A stretch of 52,941 nucleotides of DNA. It comes from an uncultured Caulobacterales bacterium. GTDB taxonomy: Bacteria; Pseudomonadota; Alphaproteobacteria; Caulobacterales; Maricaulaceae. The DNA lies in NCBI GenBank assembly GCA_937929915.1, contig CALFUN010000032.1, forward strand, positions 1-52,941, in the 5' to 3' direction. Positions 11,712-36,726 of this stretch are shown piece by piece. Position numbers and translations under genes: made by a program. How positions within the stretch are numbered: position 1 is the stretch's first letter; each line of letters starts with the position of its first letter. The notes under the pieces are model-generated. The model saw nothing but the letters and a program-made list of their open reading frames with translations, did not search any database and was not told where the DNA came from.

Positions 11712-11742
11712 GCTAGAATTTACGGCGTGATAAGGGGGGGTT

Positions 11743-12615
11743 ATGACGGAAAATTCAGATCAACCAAGAGCTGAGTATCAATATGATTGGCAAAACCCAA
11801 ATTTGAAAAAATTTGATTTTGGGCGTATGATGAGCCGTACATTTCGCGGCGCGCTATATTGCGCTAAACAGTTTTGGCTGCCCGTAGGGTTGGTGCTCGG
11901 TATTCCAACATTTTTAATCAGCCTTTGGCCCATGCTCTTGCCAAATGGCGCTTATGGTGAGTTCATAACAGGCGGTGGTTTTGATGGATTTGAAGGTGCA
12001 TTTACACCGTTTATAATCGTTATGACTATTTTGATTTATTTGGCTTTTATAGCTGTAACGGCAATTTTATATATTGCTTTATCACATAATATTTATGGAT
12101 TTTATAATGAATCGGCGCCAAGTTTTCGCGAATCTTGGCGGCGCGGTGTCTCTCGCATTTGGGTGACGATTGGGGCGTCGATTTTATTTTTTATGGGGGC
12201 TATCCTTGGATTTATAATCTTTATTATACCAGGATTATTATTGGTGTTGGGGTGGTATTTAATAACGCCCATTATCGCAATGGAACAAAAAGGCCCAATA
12301 GATAGTTTGGCACGATCATGGAACTTATCTAGCGGATCAAAACGCTGGATATTGTTGTTTTTTATTGTTTTGGTGGTGATTTCGCTCATCATTCAGACCG
12401 TTTTTAGTTTAATCGCTTTGCCTTTTGGCAATCAAACATTGGCTCTATTAGAGGGCGGAACGACGATATTTTGGATTTTATATGCAATAGGTGCAGCCTT
12501 GTCGCAGATTGTCATATTGTTTTTAACGGTCGCGGGGTTAACGTCAATTTATTACGAAATTCGAGATTTAAAAGAGGGCGTCGGTCAAGAGCGTTTATCG
12601 GCTGTTTTTGACTAA
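11743..12615 (+). CDS. Multi-spanning membrane protein of unknown function
   Basis: 290 aa. The first ~45 residues are hydrophilic and aromatic (PRAEYQYDWQNPNLKKFDFGRMMSRTF); then about six hydrophobic helices run to residue ~270, with a soluble SHNIYGFYNESAPSFRESWRRGVSRIW loop in the middle. The layout (a charged loop, then a GFIIFIIPGLLLVLGWYLITPIIAMEQKG helix pair) resembles the glycerophosphodiester phosphodiesterase membrane domain / YciC-like families, but I cannot place it firmly. It follows the HNH operon by 31 bp with a G-rich ribosome-binding region (AAGGGGGGG). It ends 15 bp from the convergent sufE stop. Confidence 0.65.
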   Translation: MTENSDQPRAEYQYDWQNPNLKKFDFGRMMSRTFRGALYCAKQFWLPVGLVLGIPTFLISLWPMLLPNGAYGEFITGGGFDGFEGAFTPFIIVMTILIYLAFIAVTAILYIALSHNIYGFYNESAPSFRESWRRGVSRIWVTIGASILFFMGAILGFIIFIIPGLLLVLGWYLITPIIAMEQKGPIDSLARSWNLSSGSKRWILLFFIVLVVISLIIQTVFSLIALPFGNQTLALLEGGTTIFWILYAIGAALSQIVILFLTVAGLTSIYYEIRDLKEGVGQERLSAVFD

Positions 12616-12630
12616 GCTTTCATTTCAGAT

Positions 12631-13065
12631 TTATGATTGTGTCAAAGCTTGAGCTTGGCTTTGAATACGCTCTATCATGGCTTTTAACCCATTAGAGCGC
12701 TGCGGGGATAAATGTTCATCAAGTTCGAGAGCTTTCAAAATTTCGCTCGCATTTAAAGCCATAATTTGCGCCGCGCTTCGATTTGAAAAAATTCGCAGCA
12801 CAACAGCAACCAAACCTTTAACAATATGGGCGTCACTATCGCCGCGAAAAACGAGCTTGCCGTCCTGTACATCACTTACAAGCCAAACTTGGCTCACACA
12901 GCCTTTGACTTTGTAAATATCTATTTTTTCTTCAGGCGCCAAAGGCGGCATAGATTTCCCCATATCTATGACATGCATATAGCGCTCTTCCCAATCGCTT
13001 AAAAAAGCGAAATCATCGATTAAGTCTTGTATATCACTGGGTATATTTTGAAGATTAGCTTGCAT
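12631..13065 (-). CDS. sufE: SufE family Fe-S cluster assembly protein
   Basis: 144 aa from the ATG at 13065; a GTG nine bases upstream (13074) is an alternative start. SufE binds SufS and takes persulfide sulfur onto a conserved cysteine, here Cys56 in YKVKGCVSQVWLV, for Fe-S cluster assembly. The preceding DDFAFLSDWEERYMHVIDMGKSMPPL and the RGDSDAHIVKGLVAVVL strand-helix are typical of the family. No suf operon genes are adjacent, so this is a stand-alone copy. A 17-bp perfect dyad lies just upstream (13079-13095). Confidence 0.93.
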   Translation of the reverse strand: MQANLQNIPSDIQDLIDDFAFLSDWEERYMHVIDMGKSMPPLAPEEKIDIYKVKGCVSQVWLVSDVQDGKLVFRGDSDAHIVKGLVAVVLRIFSNRSAAQIMALNASEILKALELDEHLSPQRSNGLKAMIERIQSQAQALTQS

Positions 13066-13078
13066 GAAGCTCACATAA

Positions 13079-13095
13079 GCCTAGCAGCGCTAGGC
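13079..13095. promoter_or_regulatory. Perfect 7-bp dyad directly upstream of sufE
   Basis: GCCTAGCAGCGCTAGGC has 7-bp arms and a 3-nt centre. It lies 13 bp before the ATG (4 bp before the GTG) of sufE on the minus strand, so it is either a 5' UTR hairpin near the ribosome-binding site or a protein operator. It is not followed by a T-run in either direction, so it is not an intrinsic terminator. Confidence 0.45.
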
Positions 13096-13250
13096 TGCAA
13101 GCTCTCTTATTATGTTAAAATGTAGGTGTAAAAATACGGCAAAAGCGCTTAAGGCGCGAAATGTCTCGCTTTATTCTTATTTTTCGGGCCTTTATAGAGA
13201 GATTAAGCCATTATGAACCTGTATATAGGGTGGGTAAATTAGGATGATAC

Positions 13251-14840
13251 GTGGACCGCTTTCATAATAAATTAATAACCCCAAGCTTGATTTGGCTGGC
13301 AGCATTAATGGCGGCCTTATTGGGTGCCTATCTGCGTGGTATGGACATGATGGGACTGGCCGCGCTGGCGATATTTGGGGCTATTCCTGCCATAATCAAT
13401 CTGGTGCTGACACCTTTCATGAACAGGGAGTGGGCGCAGATTATCATTATATTTGCTTGGTCAGGGCTTGCCGCTTTTGCAAGTGCTAGTCTTGGCGTTA
13501 TCCCAATGGGATTGATGTTTATTTGCCCGATAGCCTTGGCAATGTTGTTTTTACGAGAAAAGCTTCTTGAAACCATACTGATCGCTTTACTTATTGGCGG
13601 CGTGATTTTCTTTGTTGAGCGCGAAGGTTATATGCCTGCCGCGCCTTTATCGGATGTACAAATAAGTTGGGGGAGGGTGACAGGCTTGGCTGCGAGTTTA
13701 GCACTTTTATTCGGCGCTATGTTTATAGCGGCAAATACTCGGCAAGTGTCGGTTTTGGGAACCACAGGGACTCGGTGGCGCGATGGTGTAGAAGGCGGCT
13801 TGTTTGAATTTTCACCGTCAGGGGATTTAATTGGCGCAAACCCGTTAGGGCAAAGTCAATTTGGTTTAAATGATATAGCGCGAATTGGTAGTCTTTCGAC
13901 TTTGTTTAAGGATAATGACACGGCGCAATCCCATTTTAATGCCGCCGTGAGCGAAGCCCGCGCCACCCGCCAAAATCAAATTATAAGACTGTCTTGGCCA
14001 AATGAAGATAATTATATGATGTCCTATGATTTGCGCGTCACGCCGTTACGCTCTGGCGGGATATTACTGCATACAACGGACCGGTCTGATGAAGAAACCC
14101 GCATTGAACAGTTAAGACGTACGCAAGCTATCGCCTTGCGTGATAACCAAGATAAAACCTTATTTTTTGCAGGCGTTAGCCATGAGCTGCGCACGCCGTT
14201 AAATGCGATTATCGGCTTTTCTGATATGATGCGCTCGCGGCTTTTTGGGCCTTTACCAAGTAAATATGCAGAATATGCAGATATGATCCATGATAGCGGG
14301 CAACATATGCTCGATCTTATCGGAGATGTACTGGATATATCCAAAAGCGATGCGGGAAAATATGAGCTAGATTATACGGAATTTGATGTGGCGGATGTAA
14401 TTCGTAGCTCTGTAAAAATGGTGCGTCCATCTGCGGATAAAGCCGAAGTGGATTTGCAAATAGATATAGATGACCATGTGCCAGTCTTATTACGCGCAGA
14501 TCGCCGGGCTGTACGGCAAATTTTGCTAAATTTGCTCTCAAATGCCGTGAAGTTTTCAAAGCGCGGGGATTTGGTTCAAATCGGCGTAGAGCCTGAAACC
14601 GATAAGCTGGTTTTATATGTTAAAGATAATGGTATCGGTATGAGCCCGAGTGATTTGGATAAGGTCAGCGAGCCATATCAACAAGGTACAGGCGCTATGC
14701 TGGTTTCTGAACGTGGTACGGGTCTAGGTTTGAACCTTGTGCAAAACCTAACCGAGTTACATGGCGGAGATATGCAGGTCGAAAGTGAATTAGATAAAGG
14801 CACGACAGTTTCTATACACTTACCATTAGAGCCGCAATAA
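13251..14840 (+). CDS. Membrane sensor histidine kinase, DivJ/PleC-like
   Basis: 529 aa from a GTG. Residues 10-162 contain about six membrane helices, 175-285 a PAS-like region (GVEGGLFEFSPSGDLIGANP), 305-370 HisKA with the phosphoacceptor His311 (FFAGVSHELRTPLNAIIGFSDMM), and 410-525 HATPase_c with N box Asn431, G1 DNGIGM (459-464) and G2 GTGLGL (489-494). The dimerisation sequence KYAEYADMIHDSGQHMLDLIGDVLDISK and the six-helix N terminus resemble the polar kinases DivJ/PleC of Caulobacter relatives, which act on DivK. No response regulator is adjacent. The kinase assignment is firm; the DivJ-like role is inference. Confidence 0.9.
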   Translation: MDRFHNKLITPSLIWLAALMAALLGAYLRGMDMMGLAALAIFGAIPAIINLVLTPFMNREWAQIIIIFAWSGLAAFASASLGVIPMGLMFICPIALAMLFLREKLLETILIALLIGGVIFFVEREGYMPAAPLSDVQISWGRVTGLAASLALLFGAMFIAANTRQVSVLGTTGTRWRDGVEGGLFEFSPSGDLIGANPLGQSQFGLNDIARIGSLSTLFKDNDTAQSHFNAAVSEARATRQNQIIRLSWPNEDNYMMSYDLRVTPLRSGGILLHTTDRSDEETRIEQLRRTQAIALRDNQDKTLFFAGVSHELRTPLNAIIGFSDMMRSRLFGPLPSKYAEYADMIHDSGQHMLDLIGDVLDISKSDAGKYELDYTEFDVADVIRSSVKMVRPSADKAEVDLQIDIDDHVPVLLRADRRAVRQILLNLLSNAVKFSKRGDLVQIGVEPETDKLVLYVKDNGIGMSPSDLDKVSEPYQQGTGAMLVSERGTGLGLNLVQNLTELHGGDMQVESELDKGTTVSIHLPLEPQ

Positions 14841-26434: not shown

Positions 26435-26651
26435 TCTTTCAAAACAAGGCATGTGTTAGGGTTTGGTTTATATCTGGCTATATGGCGGATTCTACGCATT
26501 AAAATCGAAAATAGATTATGAAAGCATAAAAATCTTTCATTTGCTAGCTTGCATTAACTCTGCTTTAATTTTTCCAAAATAACGGGCGTTGCCGCTTTCA
26601 TTTCACTGCGATTGTTAACGCTTCGCTTACCCTGATGCGTTATGTGGATGT

Positions 26652-26990
26652 ATGAGTCAAAAAGCCGTTGAAATGATGATCGAACCGGGAGCGCAAGCTC
26701 TCATTGAGCAAATGGGGAAGCGGATGAAAACGCGCGCACGGTCTAAAGTGATTGACCGCACGCTCTCGCAAATTCGCGAAGATTTCCATGTATCGGACAT
26801 AGCTGCGTGGTTTTCCGAAGATGTATTTGCCCCCAAACGCCGAACAACGGTGCGGCTCTCGCCAGATAATGCTGATTTCCTTGCGGCTTTGTCTCAAATG
26901 GTCGGTAAAGGCCGTCCTGCAATTCTCATGGGGCTTATTTATTTTGCCGCAGCGAAGTTATCGCGCGAAGATTTAGAGAGCCTTTCTTAA
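26652..26990 (+). CDS. Hypothetical protein, possible ribbon-helix-helix part
   Basis: 112 aa. No family is recognised. The N-terminal half is helical and basic (EQMGKRMKTRARSKVIDRTLSQIREDF). The C-terminal half, RRTTVRLSPDNADFLAALSQMVGKGRPAILMGLIYFAAAKL, has a short strand followed by two helices, a pattern compatible with a ribbon-helix-helix DNA-binding fold but too weak to assert. It stands alone between the deaminase gene (217 bp before, in which I see nothing) and pgm. Coding use resembles its neighbours. Confidence 0.55.
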   Translation: MSQKAVEMMIEPGAQALIEQMGKRMKTRARSKVIDRTLSQIREDFHVSDIAAWFSEDVFAPKRRTTVRLSPDNADFLAALSQMVGKGRPAILMGLIYFAAAKLSREDLESLS

Positions 26991-27029
26991 TTTATCTGAT
27001 GTTGTAAAGCTTGAGCTGATCTTATGTGA

Positions 27030-28691
<1,662 letters not shown>

Positions 28692-32972: not shown

Positions 32973-33335
32973 TTAATGCACAGGCGGGATGAAGACCTCA
33001 TTGTTTTCATCGAGCAACACAACATTCGGTCTGTAATTGCGCGCTTTTTCCGCTTTCATTTGGCCATAGGTGATGATGATAATTTTGTCGCCAATTTGCA
33101 CCCGCCGCGCTGCTGCGCCGTTAAGACCAAAGGTTTTTGAGCCGCGCGGGGCTGTAATGGCATAGGTTGTAAAGCGCTCGCCATTGGTGATATTGAGAAT
33201 ATCAACTTGTTCATTGGGTAAAATATCCGCGCGGTCGAGCAAATCTGCATCAATCGAAATTGAGCCTTCATAATGTAAGTCAGCTTGCGTCACAGTGGCT
33301 CTGTGAATTTTACTTTTCATCATGGTTAGACGCAT
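32973..33335 (-). CDS. panD: Aspartate 1-decarboxylase proenzyme
   Basis: 120 aa. It makes beta-alanine for pantothenate and CoA. The self-cleavage site is Gly24-Ser25 in HYEGSISID, with the pyruvoyl group forming on Ser25. Lys9 ([11 protein letters not shown]) and Tyr58 (TTYAI) of the active site are present, as are GLNGAAAR and IIITYGQM. The C-terminal tail is slightly longer than that of E. coli. It is divergent from a one-domain asparaginase-like gene, sharing a 164-bp promoter region; asparaginase would produce its substrate. Confidence 0.96.
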
Positions 33336-33499
33336 ATGCTTCTCCTATTCATATAGAACTTTAGGCTCGGGTGTCAGCTCTTATATAAGACTGGCAGACG
33401 GCTCATAAAAGGTGAATGCACAATTTTTCATAGCTGCCATGTCTGGCATTTATCGTGCGTTCAGATTGGTATATAGAACCAGAATCATATGAGGCAGTT

Positions 33500-33988
33500 A
33501 TGACAGTTTTAATTCTAATCACCGGCGGTACGCTAGATAAAGTGCATGATACAATTACCGAAGGTTTGATATTTTGCCCCGATAGACGCAGCCAAGTGCC
33601 GCATGTTCTTGAAACTGGCCGCAGCGCAGATTTTGATATGCGCATTTTAATGCAAAAAGATAGTCTGGATATGGATGCGGCGGATAGAGCTATGATTCTA
33701 GACGCTGTAAATTCTGCTAGCCACTCCCAAATTGTGATTACGCATGGTACAGGGACTATGGAGCTAACAGCGAAATATTTGGATGGCAAAACAGGCGATA
33801 AGACCGTGGTGTTGACAGGGGCTATGCGGCCTTATTCGCTTGGGCGCTCGGATGCAGGGTTTAATCTTGGCGGGGCGTTGATTGCCGCGCAAACCTTAGG
33901 AGCAGGGGTTTATGCGGTGATGAACGGCGCCGTTTTTGCGGGTAAGGATGTGCGTAAAGATACGCAAACGGGCCGGTTTGATGGGTGA
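33500..33988 (+). CDS. Single-domain asparaginase-like protein
   Basis: 162 aa from the ATG at 33500. It corresponds only to the N-terminal domain of type I/II L-asparaginases (normally ~330 aa): ILITGGTLDKVHD (first catalytic Thr), VITHGTGTMELTAKYL, KTVVLTGAMRPYSLGRSDAGFNLGGAL and VYAVMNGAVFAGKDVRKDTQTGRF. The usual THGTDT motif reads THGTGT, so the catalytic Asp is replaced by Gly. The stop is where the inter-domain linker would start and no C-terminal domain follows. Short proteins of this type occur widely in proteobacteria; activity is uncertain. It is divergent from panD and precedes the sRNA region. Confidence 0.82.
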   Translation: MTVLILITGGTLDKVHDTITEGLIFCPDRRSQVPHVLETGRSADFDMRILMQKDSLDMDAADRAMILDAVNSASHSQIVITHGTGTMELTAKYLDGKTGDKTVVLTGAMRPYSLGRSDAGFNLGGALIAAQTLGAGVYAVMNGAVFAGKDVRKDTQTGRFDG

Positions 33989-34062
33989 TATAAGCGGGTA
34001 GGAGGGCAAGATTTTAAGATGATTCGATGGGATGATCTTGGGACCCTATATGCTCACAAATA

Positions 34063-34099
34063 GTTTTATGGCCTGTGATGGAAAAATAGTGTTTAAGGT
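34063..34099 (+). promoter_or_regulatory. Promoter-like block of structured RNA copy 1
   Basis: GTTTTATGG (34063-34071), a 10-nt spacer, then AAAAATAGTGTTTAAGGT (34082-34099). The same two blocks with the same 10-nt spacer stand before copy 2 although the spacer sequences differ, which is what selection on a promoter leaves. A further TGCTCACA is shared at 34051-34058. It does not match a textbook sigma-70 or sigma-32 promoter well; the sigma factor is unknown. Confidence 0.55.
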
Positions 34100-34250
34100 A
34101 CATATTCTCTTCTTCCCCTAATTAAGAGAATACTGCCAAGCGAGACCCTCCTCCCATATACTCCCTTGGCCTGCACTTTGATAAGCTCCCCTTCTTATCG
34201 AGTGATAATATAGCAGGATTGGAATGCCCCTTCCAATTCTGTTTTTTTTT
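34095..34250 (+). ncRNA. Structured small RNA copy 1: four hairpins with C-rich loops
   Basis: Four stems are visible. H1: 9-bp perfect (34103-34111/34124-34132), loop CTTCCCCTAATT. H2: GCCAAG/CTTGGC (34135-34140/34165-34170) extended by GAG/CTC, loop containing CCCTCCTCCC. H3: GATAAG/CTTATC (34180-34185/34194-34199), loop CTCCCCTT, with an outer CACT/AGTG pairing. H4: 11 bp (34214-34224/34231-34241, one G-U), loop TGCCCC, then nine T, an intrinsic terminator. Every loop offers a C-run complementary to Shine-Dalgarno sequences. This recalls alphaproteobacterial CcsR/cuckoo sRNAs, which carry CUCCUCCC loops. The 5' end is estimated from the conserved block. No ORF is supported here. Confidence 0.8.
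34214..34250 (+). terminator. Rho-independent terminator of RNA copy 1
   Basis: The stem CAGGATTGGAA/TTCCAATTCTG, 11 bp with one G-U, has loop TGCCCC and is followed directly by nine T (34242-34250). It is also hairpin H4 of the RNA. Confidence 0.9.
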
Positions 34251-34357
34251 CGCAAAATATATGAAATTTCCTTCAATCACCTCTAAGCCTTACGGCTTGT
34301 GCGCTGGAAAGGTTCAAGCCTTTACTGTATTTTTATGCTCACATAACTTCACATTTT

Positions 34358-34394
34358 GTTTTATGGTCACCGCCCAAAAAATAGTGTCTAAGGT
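34358..34394 (+). promoter_or_regulatory. Promoter-like block of structured RNA copy 2
   Basis: GTTTTATGG (34358-34366), a 10-nt spacer, AAAAATAGTGTCTAAGGT (34377-34394): the same blocks and spacing as before copy 1, one base different. TGCTCACA recurs at 34336-34343. Each copy therefore appears to have its own promoter. Confidence 0.55.
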
Positions 34395-34540
34395 GATTAT
34401 TCTCTTCCTCCCTTAATGAGAATGACCGCCAAGTGAGCCCCCTTACTCCCTTGGCATAACACTCGGATAAGACCCCCTTTCTTATCTAGTTGTGTTTTAG
34501 CAGGATTGAAGCCCCCCTTACTTCAATCCTGCTTTTTATT
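34390..34540 (+). ncRNA. Structured small RNA copy 2: four hairpins with C-rich loops
   Basis: Same order as copy 1. H1: ATTCTC/GAGAAT (34399-34404/34418-34423), loop TTCCTCCCTTAAT. H2: GCCAAG/CTTGGC (34428-34433/34450-34455) extended by GAG/CTC across a T-C mismatch, loop CCCCCTTA. H3: GATAAG/CTTATC (34466-34471/34481-34486), loop ACCCCCTTT, with outer ACACT/AGT-GTGT pairing. H4: 13-bp perfect stem (34499-34511/34521-34533), loop CCCCCCTTA, then a T-rich tail. Compared with copy 1, stems are kept while loops and linkers differ, and in H4 two base pairs change on both sides (G-C to A-T, A-T to G-C). This is strong support for an RNA. It ends 36 bp before the convergent uvrB stop. Confidence 0.8.
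34499..34540 (+). terminator. Rho-independent terminator of RNA copy 2
   Basis: Perfect 13-bp stem AGCAGGATTGAAG/CTTCAATCCTGCT, loop CCCCCCTTA, followed by TTTTTATT. On the opposite strand no T-run follows the stem, so it does not terminate uvrB. Confidence 0.9.
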
Positions 34541-34575
34541 GCCTAAAACTATGAAGATATGCGCATTATGAACGC

Positions 34576-36726
34576 TTAAATGGCTTGAGCTTTGAGCGTC
34601 TGCATTTCATCGCGCAGGCGCGCGGCTTCCTCAAATTCAAGATTTTCAGCCGCGACAAACATGCGTTTTTCAAGATCTGCCAATATAGCGACCATATTGC
34701 CGCCCATATAGGCCGCTTGCCCATTTTCGGCCACTTCGAGAGCAGGCGTGCTGTCTTGCTGGTATTTTTTCTTAATTTGACCAGAGGGCGTATAGCGATT
34801 TGCTGCATCTTTGATTTTCTCGGCGGCTTGACTATCGCCGACCATATCGGCCACACCGCGCAACACAGTTTGCGGCGTAATGCCGTGTGTCTCATTATGC
34901 GCGATTTGGCGTGCGCGGCGGCGTTTAGTCTCGTCCATAGCCCGCTGCATAGACCCTGTGATTTTATCAGCATATAGCACGACACGCGCATTGGCATTTC
35001 GCGCCGCGCGGCCAATCGTTTGCACAAGCGAGGTTTCGCTTCGCAGAAATCCTTCCTTATCAGCATCTAAAATGCCAACAAAAGCACATTCGGGAATATC
35101 AAGACCTTCGCGCAGCAAGTTAATCCCGATCAATACGTCAAATTTACCAAGGCGCAGATCGCGGATGATTTCGATACGTTCCAGCGTATCGACATCACTA
35201 TGCATATAGCGCACGCGAATCCCTTGATCTGTCATATATTCAGTGAGATCTTCGGCCATTTTCTTGGTTAGGGTGGTGACAAGTGAGCGGTAGCCTTGAG
35301 CCGCAACTTTTTGAACTTCGTCAATAATATCATCGACTTGATTGCCGCCATCTTTGGAGACAGGACGTATTTCGACAGGCGGATCAATCAAGCCTGTTGG
35401 GCGAATAACTTGCTCGACAAAGACGCCGCCTGTGCGCTCCATTTCCCAATTTGCTGGCGTGGCGGAAACATGAATAGATTGCGGGCGCATGGCGTCCCAT
35501 TCTTCAAATTTTAGCGGGCGGTTATCGATACAGCTGGGCAGGCGGAAGCCATGTTCGGATAATGTGGTTTTGCGGTTCAAGTCACCTTTGCTCATTGCGC
35601 CGATTTGCGGCACCGACACATGTGATTCGTCCATGAATAAAAGCGCATCTTCGGGCAGATATTCAAATAATGTCGGCGGCGGCTCCCCTGGCGCGCGGCC
35701 TGTCAGATAGCGGGAATAATTCTCAATGCCTGAGCAAAACCCTTGCGCGGCAATCATCTCTAGATCAAATTCTGTGCGTTGGGCGATACGTTGGGCTTCG
35801 AGTAATTTCCCTTCGGCTTCATAACGCTTCAGAGTATCTTGGAGTTCTTTTTTTATGCCTTTGACCGCGGCCTGCAAAGTTGGGCGCGGCGTGACATAAT
35901 GCGAATTGGCATAAACGCGCACAGTGTCTAAATTCTGAAGGCTTTTTCCTGTCAGCGGATCAAAGGCGGTAATCGCATCAATTTCATCCCCGAAGAAATC
36001 AAAGCGCCATGCCATATCATCATAATGGGCGGGGAAAAGCTCAACGCAATCACCGCGCACACGAAATGTACCGCGCTGAAATGCCAAATCATTGCGCGCA
36101 TATTGTAGCTCGACAAATTGGGCCATGAGTGCGCGCTGATCAATCTCTTGGCCTTTAGCAAGGTCAACGGTCATCGCCGTATAGGTTTCTACTGAGCCGA
36201 TACCGTAAATGCAAGAGACAGAGGCGACGATGATACAATCATCGCGCTCTAATATGGCCCGCGTCGCCGCATGGCGCATGCGGTCAATTTGTTCATTCAC
36301 GCTGCTGTCTTTTTCTATGAAAGTATCTGTACGCGGCACATAGGCTTCGGGTTGGTAATAATCATAATAAGAGACAAAATATTCGACTGCATTATCTGGA
36401 AAAAAGCTTTTAAATTCAGAATATAATTGCGCCGCGAGCGTTTTATTCGGGGCCATGATGAGAGCAGGACGCTGTGTTTGCTCGATAATTTTCGCCATTG
36501 TAAAGGTTTTACCTGACCCGGTTACGCCGAGTAGAACTTGGTCGCGTTCAATAGAATTTAGGCCAGCAACAAGCTCTTTAATCGCTTTGGGTTGATCGCC
36601 TTTGGGTTCAAATTCGCTGACGAGCCGAAACCGTTTTCCGCCTTCGGATTTCTCAGGGCGCACAGGCTTATGCGGTGTCCAAAGTGCAGGCGTCTCTCGG
36701 ACGTTGATATTGGCAGAGCTAGGCAT
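34576..36726 (-). CDS. uvrB: UvrABC excision nuclease subunit B
   Basis: 716 aa. The damage-verifying helicase-like subunit of nucleotide excision repair. Walker [14 protein letters not shown] near residue 63; the beta-hairpin [13 protein letters not shown]; motif [17 protein letters not shown]; helicase motifs [17 protein letters not shown]-terminal UVR domain (about 675-712, [28 protein letters not shown]) contacts UvrC. An N-terminal extension of ~30 residues precedes [17 protein letters not shown], as is common in this class. No GTTC-N7-GTTC LexA box is apparent in the 98 bp upstream. Confidence 0.97.

Follow-up and report, generated by a model that had tools for sequence, protein, structure and literature searches.

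Two structured units between an asparaginase-domain gene and uvrB

In the window (the whole stretch of DNA analysed, 52,941 bases), the region between an asparaginase-domain gene and uvrB raises the question of what is encoded by two similar units that face in the same direction. A preliminary description had placed a tandem pair of structured RNAs at this locus, and the window sequence does contain two units there, both on the + strand (Table 1). The same description called the region the only long gene-free stretch, which is not borne out; the gaps at 12616-13307 and 26435-27050 are longer, based on open reading frames of at least 150 aa (shorter genes may lie there).

RNA folding identified four hairpins in each unit, as had been described. 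MFE z-scores were -4.1 for 34080-34250 and -7.9 for 34385-34542 relative to 500 dinucleotide shuffles each, and none of the 500 shuffles had an MFE as low for either unit. The RNA parts of copies 1 and 2 are identical at 104 of 137 aligned positions (76%, or 67% counting gap columns). Two features noted earlier were confirmed: the stems GCCAAG/CTTGGC and GATAAG/CTTATC do not differ between the copies, and two pairs of the 13-bp terminator stem in hairpin 4 are changed on both sides (G-C to A-T and A-T to G-C). Two further pairs of that stem are changed on one side only (G-U to G-C). Both copies have a 13-pair stem followed by T's, in keeping with the "textbook intrinsic terminator" of the preliminary description; however, a simple terminator scan listed only copy 1, and this one match is at chance level (mean of 0.8 in shuffles). 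In copy 2, the nine-base terminator loop exceeds the length that the scan allows.

Table 1. Features of the locus, with positions in the window
Feature	Position	Strand	Remarks
Asparaginase-domain gene	ends 33988	+	
Promoter-side element, copy 1	34054..34071	+	TCAC-N5-GTTTTAT-N-G; matches TCACNNNNNGTTTTATNG; conserved in relatives
Putative -10, copy 1	34092..34097	+	TTTAAG; similar hexamer at equal spacing in the 14 copies laid out, by eye
sRNA gene copy 1	34104..34250	+	predicted transcript ~147 nt; R3 built without copy 1 matches 34042-34251, E = 1.2e-26
Copy 1 hairpin 1	34104..34131	+	loop CTTCCCCTAATT; folding; covariation of helix 1
Copy 1 hairpin 2	34135..34170	+	loop with CCCTCCTCCC; folding; extra hairpin, seen only in window copies
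Copy 1 hairpin 3	34174..34204	+	loop CTCCCCTT; folding; covariation of helices 2 and 3
Copy 1 hairpin 4	34212..34250	+	13-bp intrinsic terminator and T tail; terminator scan; covariation of helix 4
Promoter-side element, copy 2	34338..34366	+	TCACA-N6-TCACA-N4-GTTTTATGG; layout of relatives and count in window
Putative -10, copy 2	34387..34392	+	TCTAAG; by-eye reading of promoter layout
sRNA gene copy 2	34399..34538	+	predicted transcript ~140 nt; R3 built without copy 2 matches 34338-34541, E = 5e-23
Copy 2 hairpin 1	34399..34423	+	loop around CCTCCCTTA; folding; covariation
Copy 2 hairpin 2	34428..34455	+	loop CCCCCTTA; folding; extra hairpin, none seen in relatives read
Copy 2 hairpin 3	34460..34490	+	loop ACCCCCTTT; folding; covariation
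Copy 2 hairpin 4	34499..34538	+	13-bp intrinsic terminator, nine-base loop; folding; covariation of helix 4
uvrB	34576-36726	-	

Relatives in one family of Alphaproteobacteria

Using BLAST (E 0.001), we aligned the whole region against 40 genomes, including its own, and only the window matched; blastn against plasmids and phages gave no match. We used a covariance model of the RNA part of the two window copies (R1) to search 59 related genomes, and none outside the own genome matched at E ≤ 0.1. Against 137 genomes of the family (own included), R1 identified places in G087 (E 7e-5) and G089 (E 0.08). The G089 locus carries TTCACGAATAGTTTTATGGTATGTGAT, nearly identical to copy 1, upstream of the modelled part; since R1 never included the promoter region, this sequence gives evidence of homology that is independent of the model. 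The G089 genome is apparently that of Hellea sp. MAG-149, and NCBI taxonomy places Hellea in Maricaulales, Robiginitomaculaceae.

A second model (R2) drew on three copies and also covered the promoter region; it identified 14 places in 10 of the same 137 genomes at E < 1e-8, own copies counted, and 12 more genomes had weak matches only (up to E 5). A third model (R3) was built from 12 relatives, excluding the window copies, and it recovered both of them at the E-values in Table 1. Among 398 genomes drawn from the order, 24 matched R3 at E ≤ 0.5, and G044, G012 and G022 were added from these matches once their hairpins had been read. In total, we accepted 17 copies in 13 genomes and 6 genera, all within one family of Alphaproteobacteria that includes Hellea sp. 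MAG-149; members occur in 13 of the 137 family genomes and in 3 of the 18 from the own genus. Because the 398-genome search scored 7 of several hundred candidates per genome after a first look, it does not prove absence from other genomes. Either the sRNA family does not serve a core function, or the search misses members.

Acceptance near E 1e-4 depends on the reading of hairpins. G022 was accepted at an E-value of only 1.1e-4, as three C-rich hairpins were read there, and G226 (also 1.1e-4) was rejected together with G372 (6.7e-8) and G071:C153 (6.7e-5), as none of the three has a C-rich hairpin array. G372, which belongs to another family of the order, has the promoter motif alone. L128 (E 0.00096 in a small search) lacks C-rich hairpins and was also rejected, and a weak match at a second place in G087 (L057, E 0.87) was not accepted. 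Likewise not accepted was a place in G007 (E 0.73) with two hairpins and no promoter element seen; there, L032 1501-1629 (-) contains two strong C-rich-loop hairpins downstream of a gene, near DnaA-box-like sequences. The weak R2 and R3 places were read except L134, L135, L137-L139, L146, L147, L164, L169 and rows without a locus (for L170, the motif stretch only). The models also matched the opposite strand at L122 (E 1.2e-6), G071 (3.3e-4), G001 (5.2e-4) and the window (0.11), which we attribute to the palindromic terminator hairpins; because the opposite strand of some members scores in this way, moderate E-values alone are no proof of membership.

In genome contigs (a set that may exclude the own or near genomes), a pattern scan for hairpin 2 had 0 matches, and a scan for the promoter element with hairpin 1 returned 58 stretches, of which folds were viewed for 7. 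When R1 was applied to all 58, only Hellea sp. MAG-149 (L080) fell below E 5, at 0.0096, followed by L087 (5.4) and L089 (7.5). R1 gave no match to the viral stretch L116. For uvrB, synteny analysis gave a match in 28 of 30 genomes, and no sRNA was read on the downstream sides of L003 and L005 or the upstream side of L004; R1 had no match over 15 same-genus uvrB loci. The asparaginase-like gene was found in 19 of 40 genomes, and two of its neighbourhoods (L035 and L037) were read. Over 20 asparaginase loci and 12 further uvrB loci, R1 gave one chance match (E 3.3).

Covariation of stems and composition of loops

In a hand-made structural alignment of the 17 members, 94.5% of 454 cells are paired and 28 of 31 pairs have changes on both sides, counts that are inflated because the alignment was made to pair; in hairpin 1, MAFFT had displaced the row of G087 by one column. 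None of 500 shuffles of this alignment reached any of the five observed measures, and when partners were slid by 1-3 columns only 33-45% of cells paired. We also ran RNAalifold, unguided, on 13 of the 17 members as MAFFT alone aligned them (copy 2, G087, G012 and G022 left out). It predicted the middle and terminator helices unaided, and 13 of its 16 predicted pairs are doubly changed. Hairpin 1 was not recovered from this 13-member alignment, which we ascribe to misalignment by MAFFT. The homologues with covarying stems thus support the earlier claims of selected RNA structure and of a new sRNA family in this lineage.

The four-hairpin form attributed to the family was seen only in this genome. 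All 15 members outside it read as three hairpins (hairpin 1, middle and terminator), and the extra hairpin 2, with the stem GCCAAG/CTTGGC, was seen only in the two window copies. Hairpin 3 of copy 1 is taken as the counterpart of the middle hairpin of the relatives.

With loop borders set by hand, UCCC or CCCC is present in 48 of the 53 loops of the 17 members, the exceptions being hairpin 1 of G001b and of G087, the middle hairpin of G072, and the terminators of G090a and G090b. Leaving aside the two extra hairpins, the motif is in 46 of 51 loops, relative to 4.4 expected and a maximum of 13 in 2000 composition-matched draws. Loop bases are 85.6% pyrimidine and 54% C; the corresponding values for the stems of hairpin 1 and the terminator are 51% and 25%. 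The CCTCCTCCC loops of the preliminary description are represented by one occurrence, in hairpin 2 of copy 1, but by none in copy 2, and UCCC/CCCC is the general loop motif.

Repeated C/U-rich loops might instead titrate an RNA-binding protein without pairing to mRNA, as RNAs of the RsmY/RsmZ type do with CsrA. Several hairpins with the same type of loop, more than one copy and conservation of a promoter element are also typical of sponge RNAs, and all of these are found here. However, GGA occurs in 0 of 51 loops, which argues against a sponge of the CsrA/Rsm type, and we know of no sponge target that binds C-rich loops; we therefore think titration of a protein improbable.

Promoter-side element

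The sequence TCACNNNNNGTTTTATNG occurs exactly twice in the 52,941 bases of the window (at 34054 and 34349), each time in front of a unit, and 0 times in 100 shuffles. The preliminary description did not mention this element. Laying out the promoter regions of 14 copies by eye (G044, G012 and G022 left out) revealed one common spacing pattern: TCACA-N6-TCAC[AG]-N5-GTTTTATTG, then GTGA, 13 nt, a hexamer like T[TC]TA[AT][AG], 6 nt (but 5 in G087), and hairpin 1. The window copies depart from this pattern in the first TCACA, which is degenerate in copy 1, and in GTGA, which is lost in copy 2. Elsewhere, the half-sites of G090b are 10 bp apart instead of 11, GTTTG replaces GTTTT in three copies, G071 has CTTTTAT, and the -10 hexamer is weaker in G087 and G089. 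Outside the layout, the promoter of G012 is divergent, and the gap before hairpin 1 is longer in G022.

Relatives such as G071 and G001 have a possible -35 sequence, TTGTAT, 17 nt before the hexamer, whereas the window copies have TGGCCT and TGGTCA at this position. A simple sigma-70 scan of the window did not list the proposed promoter of either copy. Transcript starts where hairpin 1 begins, at ~34104 in copy 1 and ~34399 in copy 2, are therefore predictions.

The TCACA half-sites, 11 bp apart and upstream of the -35 region, look like the site of a regulator. By eye, they do not resemble the ChvI motifs in the excerpt of PMC9731502. TCACNNNNNGTTTTATNG was also found in two genomes from a different family of the order, at L155 1547-1564 (-) and L170 1514-1531 (+), with no C-rich hairpins in the stretches seen; these occurrences may be due to chance or may be further targets of the same regulator.

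Comparison with known RNA families

At the gathering threshold, Rfam 15 had no match in the window save one tRNA elsewhere. A permissive search (up to E = 5) added only snoZ163, at E 4.2, and a sub-threshold match to Chlorobi-1 on the opposite strand (E 0.0066, 19.9 of 50 bits). At 14 relatives' loci, the RNAs themselves had sub-threshold matches only, to mir-26 over the G001a RNA (27.1 of 57 bits) and to Pseudomon-1/ErsA over the G012 RNA (E 0.24, 26.9 of 50 bits). Judged by the features compared, the sRNA family lies outside NfeR1, CcsR/cuckoo and GsrN; we regard it as new but of a known kind, and do not place it in any of these or in sX13. The published descriptions used in this comparison are excerpts of the papers cited.

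In the excerpt of PMC3771888, sX13 of Xanthomonas has three stable stems with apical 4C/5C loops that act on G-rich motifs near translation starts. The family described here shares the several stems with apical C-rich loops (48 of 53 loops), and G-rich start motifs as targets are only inferred for it. As described in that excerpt, sX13 differs in its unstructured 5' region and in its place at polA, whereas the RNAs described here appear to begin with hairpin 1 and have TCAC/GTTTTAT as their promoter-side element.

NfeR1 of Sinorhizobium (alpha-r14), according to the excerpt of PMC10746234, has three hairpins with anti-Shine-Dalgarno loops that act at the ntrB start region, stems of differing sequence, and a conserved activator site upstream of the promoter. 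Three hairpins were likewise read in the relatives, and the window copies have four. In alpha-r14, CCUCCUCCC recurs unchanged in each of the three loops and the site upstream, TGCA-N6-GCAT, is that of LsrB (PMC10746234, same excerpt), whereas the loops here vary and the upstream site is TCACA-based.

CcsR1-4 (cuckoo) with CcaF1 are also small RNAs side by side in Alphaproteobacteria, but the excerpt of PMC10253847 has them processed from one ccaF1 (DUF1127) transcript with an RpoH promoter, whereas separate promoter-side elements and terminator hairpins accompany the two units here. No DUF1127 gene adjoins the pair in the window, where the upstream gene encodes an asparaginase N-terminal domain, and a crude DUF1127 pattern was found 12-800 nt upstream of 0 of the 17 members. 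A simple RpoHI/RpoHII promoter pattern (CTTG-N16-18-C[CT]AT) is also absent from all 17. The relation to CcsR/cuckoo suggested in the preliminary description is thus not supported by the features compared, given no DUF1127 neighbour in the window, no RpoH-type promoter by this pattern, CCUCCUCCC in one loop and no Rfam match up to E = 5.

The similar build in Alphaproteobacteria, with three or more C/U-rich-loop hairpins and a terminator, and the presence of CCUCCUCCC in copy 1 hairpin 2 would nevertheless fit members of cuckoo/CcsR or NfeR1 (alpha-r14) that have diverged past Rfam's models. We consider such membership unlikely: Rfam matches neither family, CCUCCUCCC is in just 1 of 8 window loops, the window's upstream gene is not DUF1127 as for cuckoo, and the promoter region is unlike the -35/-10 and activator site of NfeR1 as described in the excerpt of PMC10746234.

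GsrN of Caulobacter, in a related bacterial group, also has a C-rich loop that pairs with G-rich mRNA. Based on the excerpt of PMC5869019, it differs in that it has a single 5' loop rich in C, is transcribed from a sigma-EcfG promoter, lies near sigT-phyR and raises katG expression; a sigma-EcfG pattern (GGAA-N15-18-CGTT) is absent from the 17 members. AbcR1/AbcR2 (excerpts of PMC3712013 and PMC5461406) are likewise described as two homologous sRNAs encoded in tandem in Alphaproteobacteria; the units here have no Rfam match.

In open-access literature (most subscription papers and all bioRxiv preprints lay outside the search), "Hellea" and "small RNA" did not occur together in any paper, and no description of the sRNA family was seen among the matches listed. 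The family thus adds to those of Rfam 15, from which it is absent, in a group without an sRNA study among the literature matches listed.

Proposed action and candidate target

The conserved promoter-side element, compensatory stem changes, terminator hairpin and C-rich loops on nearly all hairpins point to trans-acting sRNAs. We propose, with a probability of about 0.77, that each unit is an independently transcribed small regulatory RNA that would silence G-rich translation starts in trans through its C-rich loops, most likely in the manner of sX13 or NfeR1. The RNA would begin at hairpin 1, and its stems would display single-stranded UCCC, CCCC or CUCC loops. These would pair with G-rich sequence resembling Shine-Dalgarno sites at translation starts and so keep ribosomes from binding; the several loops may be redundant or may engage several sites at once. 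A transcription regulator that binds the TCACA half-sites, immediately before the -35 region, could cause the pair to be made under one particular condition, and the duplication and extra hairpin could raise dose and loop number. The conserved promoter-side element offers a direct handle on this putative regulator.

For seven loops and 36 window genes, using first-ATG starts, loop-to-start pairing was weakly better than in coding DNA (p = 0.013 to 0.13, uncorrected); results looked better when starts were picked by Shine-Dalgarno strength, but that choice biases the test. Among the 36 genes, the one at 11743 is the best single candidate, having AAGGGGGGGTTATG at its start, and is only suggestive of a target. 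This gene (window 11718-12615, +) encodes 290 aa with no Pfam match and has a seven-G run just before the start. In sX13 and NfeR1, the action of C-rich loops was tested with loop mutants and reporters (excerpts of PMC3771888 and PMC10746234).

Copy number, hairpin number and neighbourhoods

Tandem pairs are present in the window (295 bp apart) and in G001 (372 bp apart). G090 and G126 have two copies on separate contigs; these are draft genomes, in which near-identical copies could be assembly variants. Over 51 promoter positions, within-genome copies are closer to each other than to copies elsewhere (0.71, 0.86, 0.75 and 0.96), which suggests repeated duplication or homogenised copies. It is possible, although we hold this only tentatively, that the family is a modular one specific to the Hellea group, under a regulator recognising tandem TCACA half-sites, in which the number of copies (four genomes have pairs) and that of hairpins (three to four) vary independently, with loop dosage as the evolving trait. 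The three-loop and four-loop, one-copy and two-copy versions form a natural series that bears on why C-rich multi-loop sRNAs recur in unrelated bacteria.

The RNA of G012 (L154 1233-1402, -), a genome of the own genus, has three hairpins with C-rich loops, but its terminator is different and its promoter divergent; it may represent a sister family.

Flanking genes, named by eye, are common within genera (G069 with G072; G087 with both G090 copies) and differ from genus to genus. In the window, both units lie downstream of the asparaginase-like gene and on its strand, as would be expected if they were its 3' untranslated hairpins or attenuators and not free sRNAs. However, a conserved promoter-side element precedes each unit separately and a terminator hairpin ends each, other genes adjoin the homologues found in other genera, the asparaginase gene stands without such a unit in same-genus L035 and L037, and R1 found no member over 20 asparaginase loci. 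We regard a cis-acting role as very improbable.

The asparaginase gene itself (33500-33988, +) encodes 162 aa with the N-terminal domain PF00710 alone, lacking the C-terminal half. Most relatives with an asparaginase match have a short open frame of similar length, and the gene thus looks like one for a conserved small protein and not a broken gene. In L035 and L037, panD and the asparaginase gene lie beside an M16-peptidase-like gene (by eye); within window 32973-34575, the sRNA pair and uvrB stand in place of that gene. Based on these different neighbours, the sRNA locus may sit at a rearrangement point.
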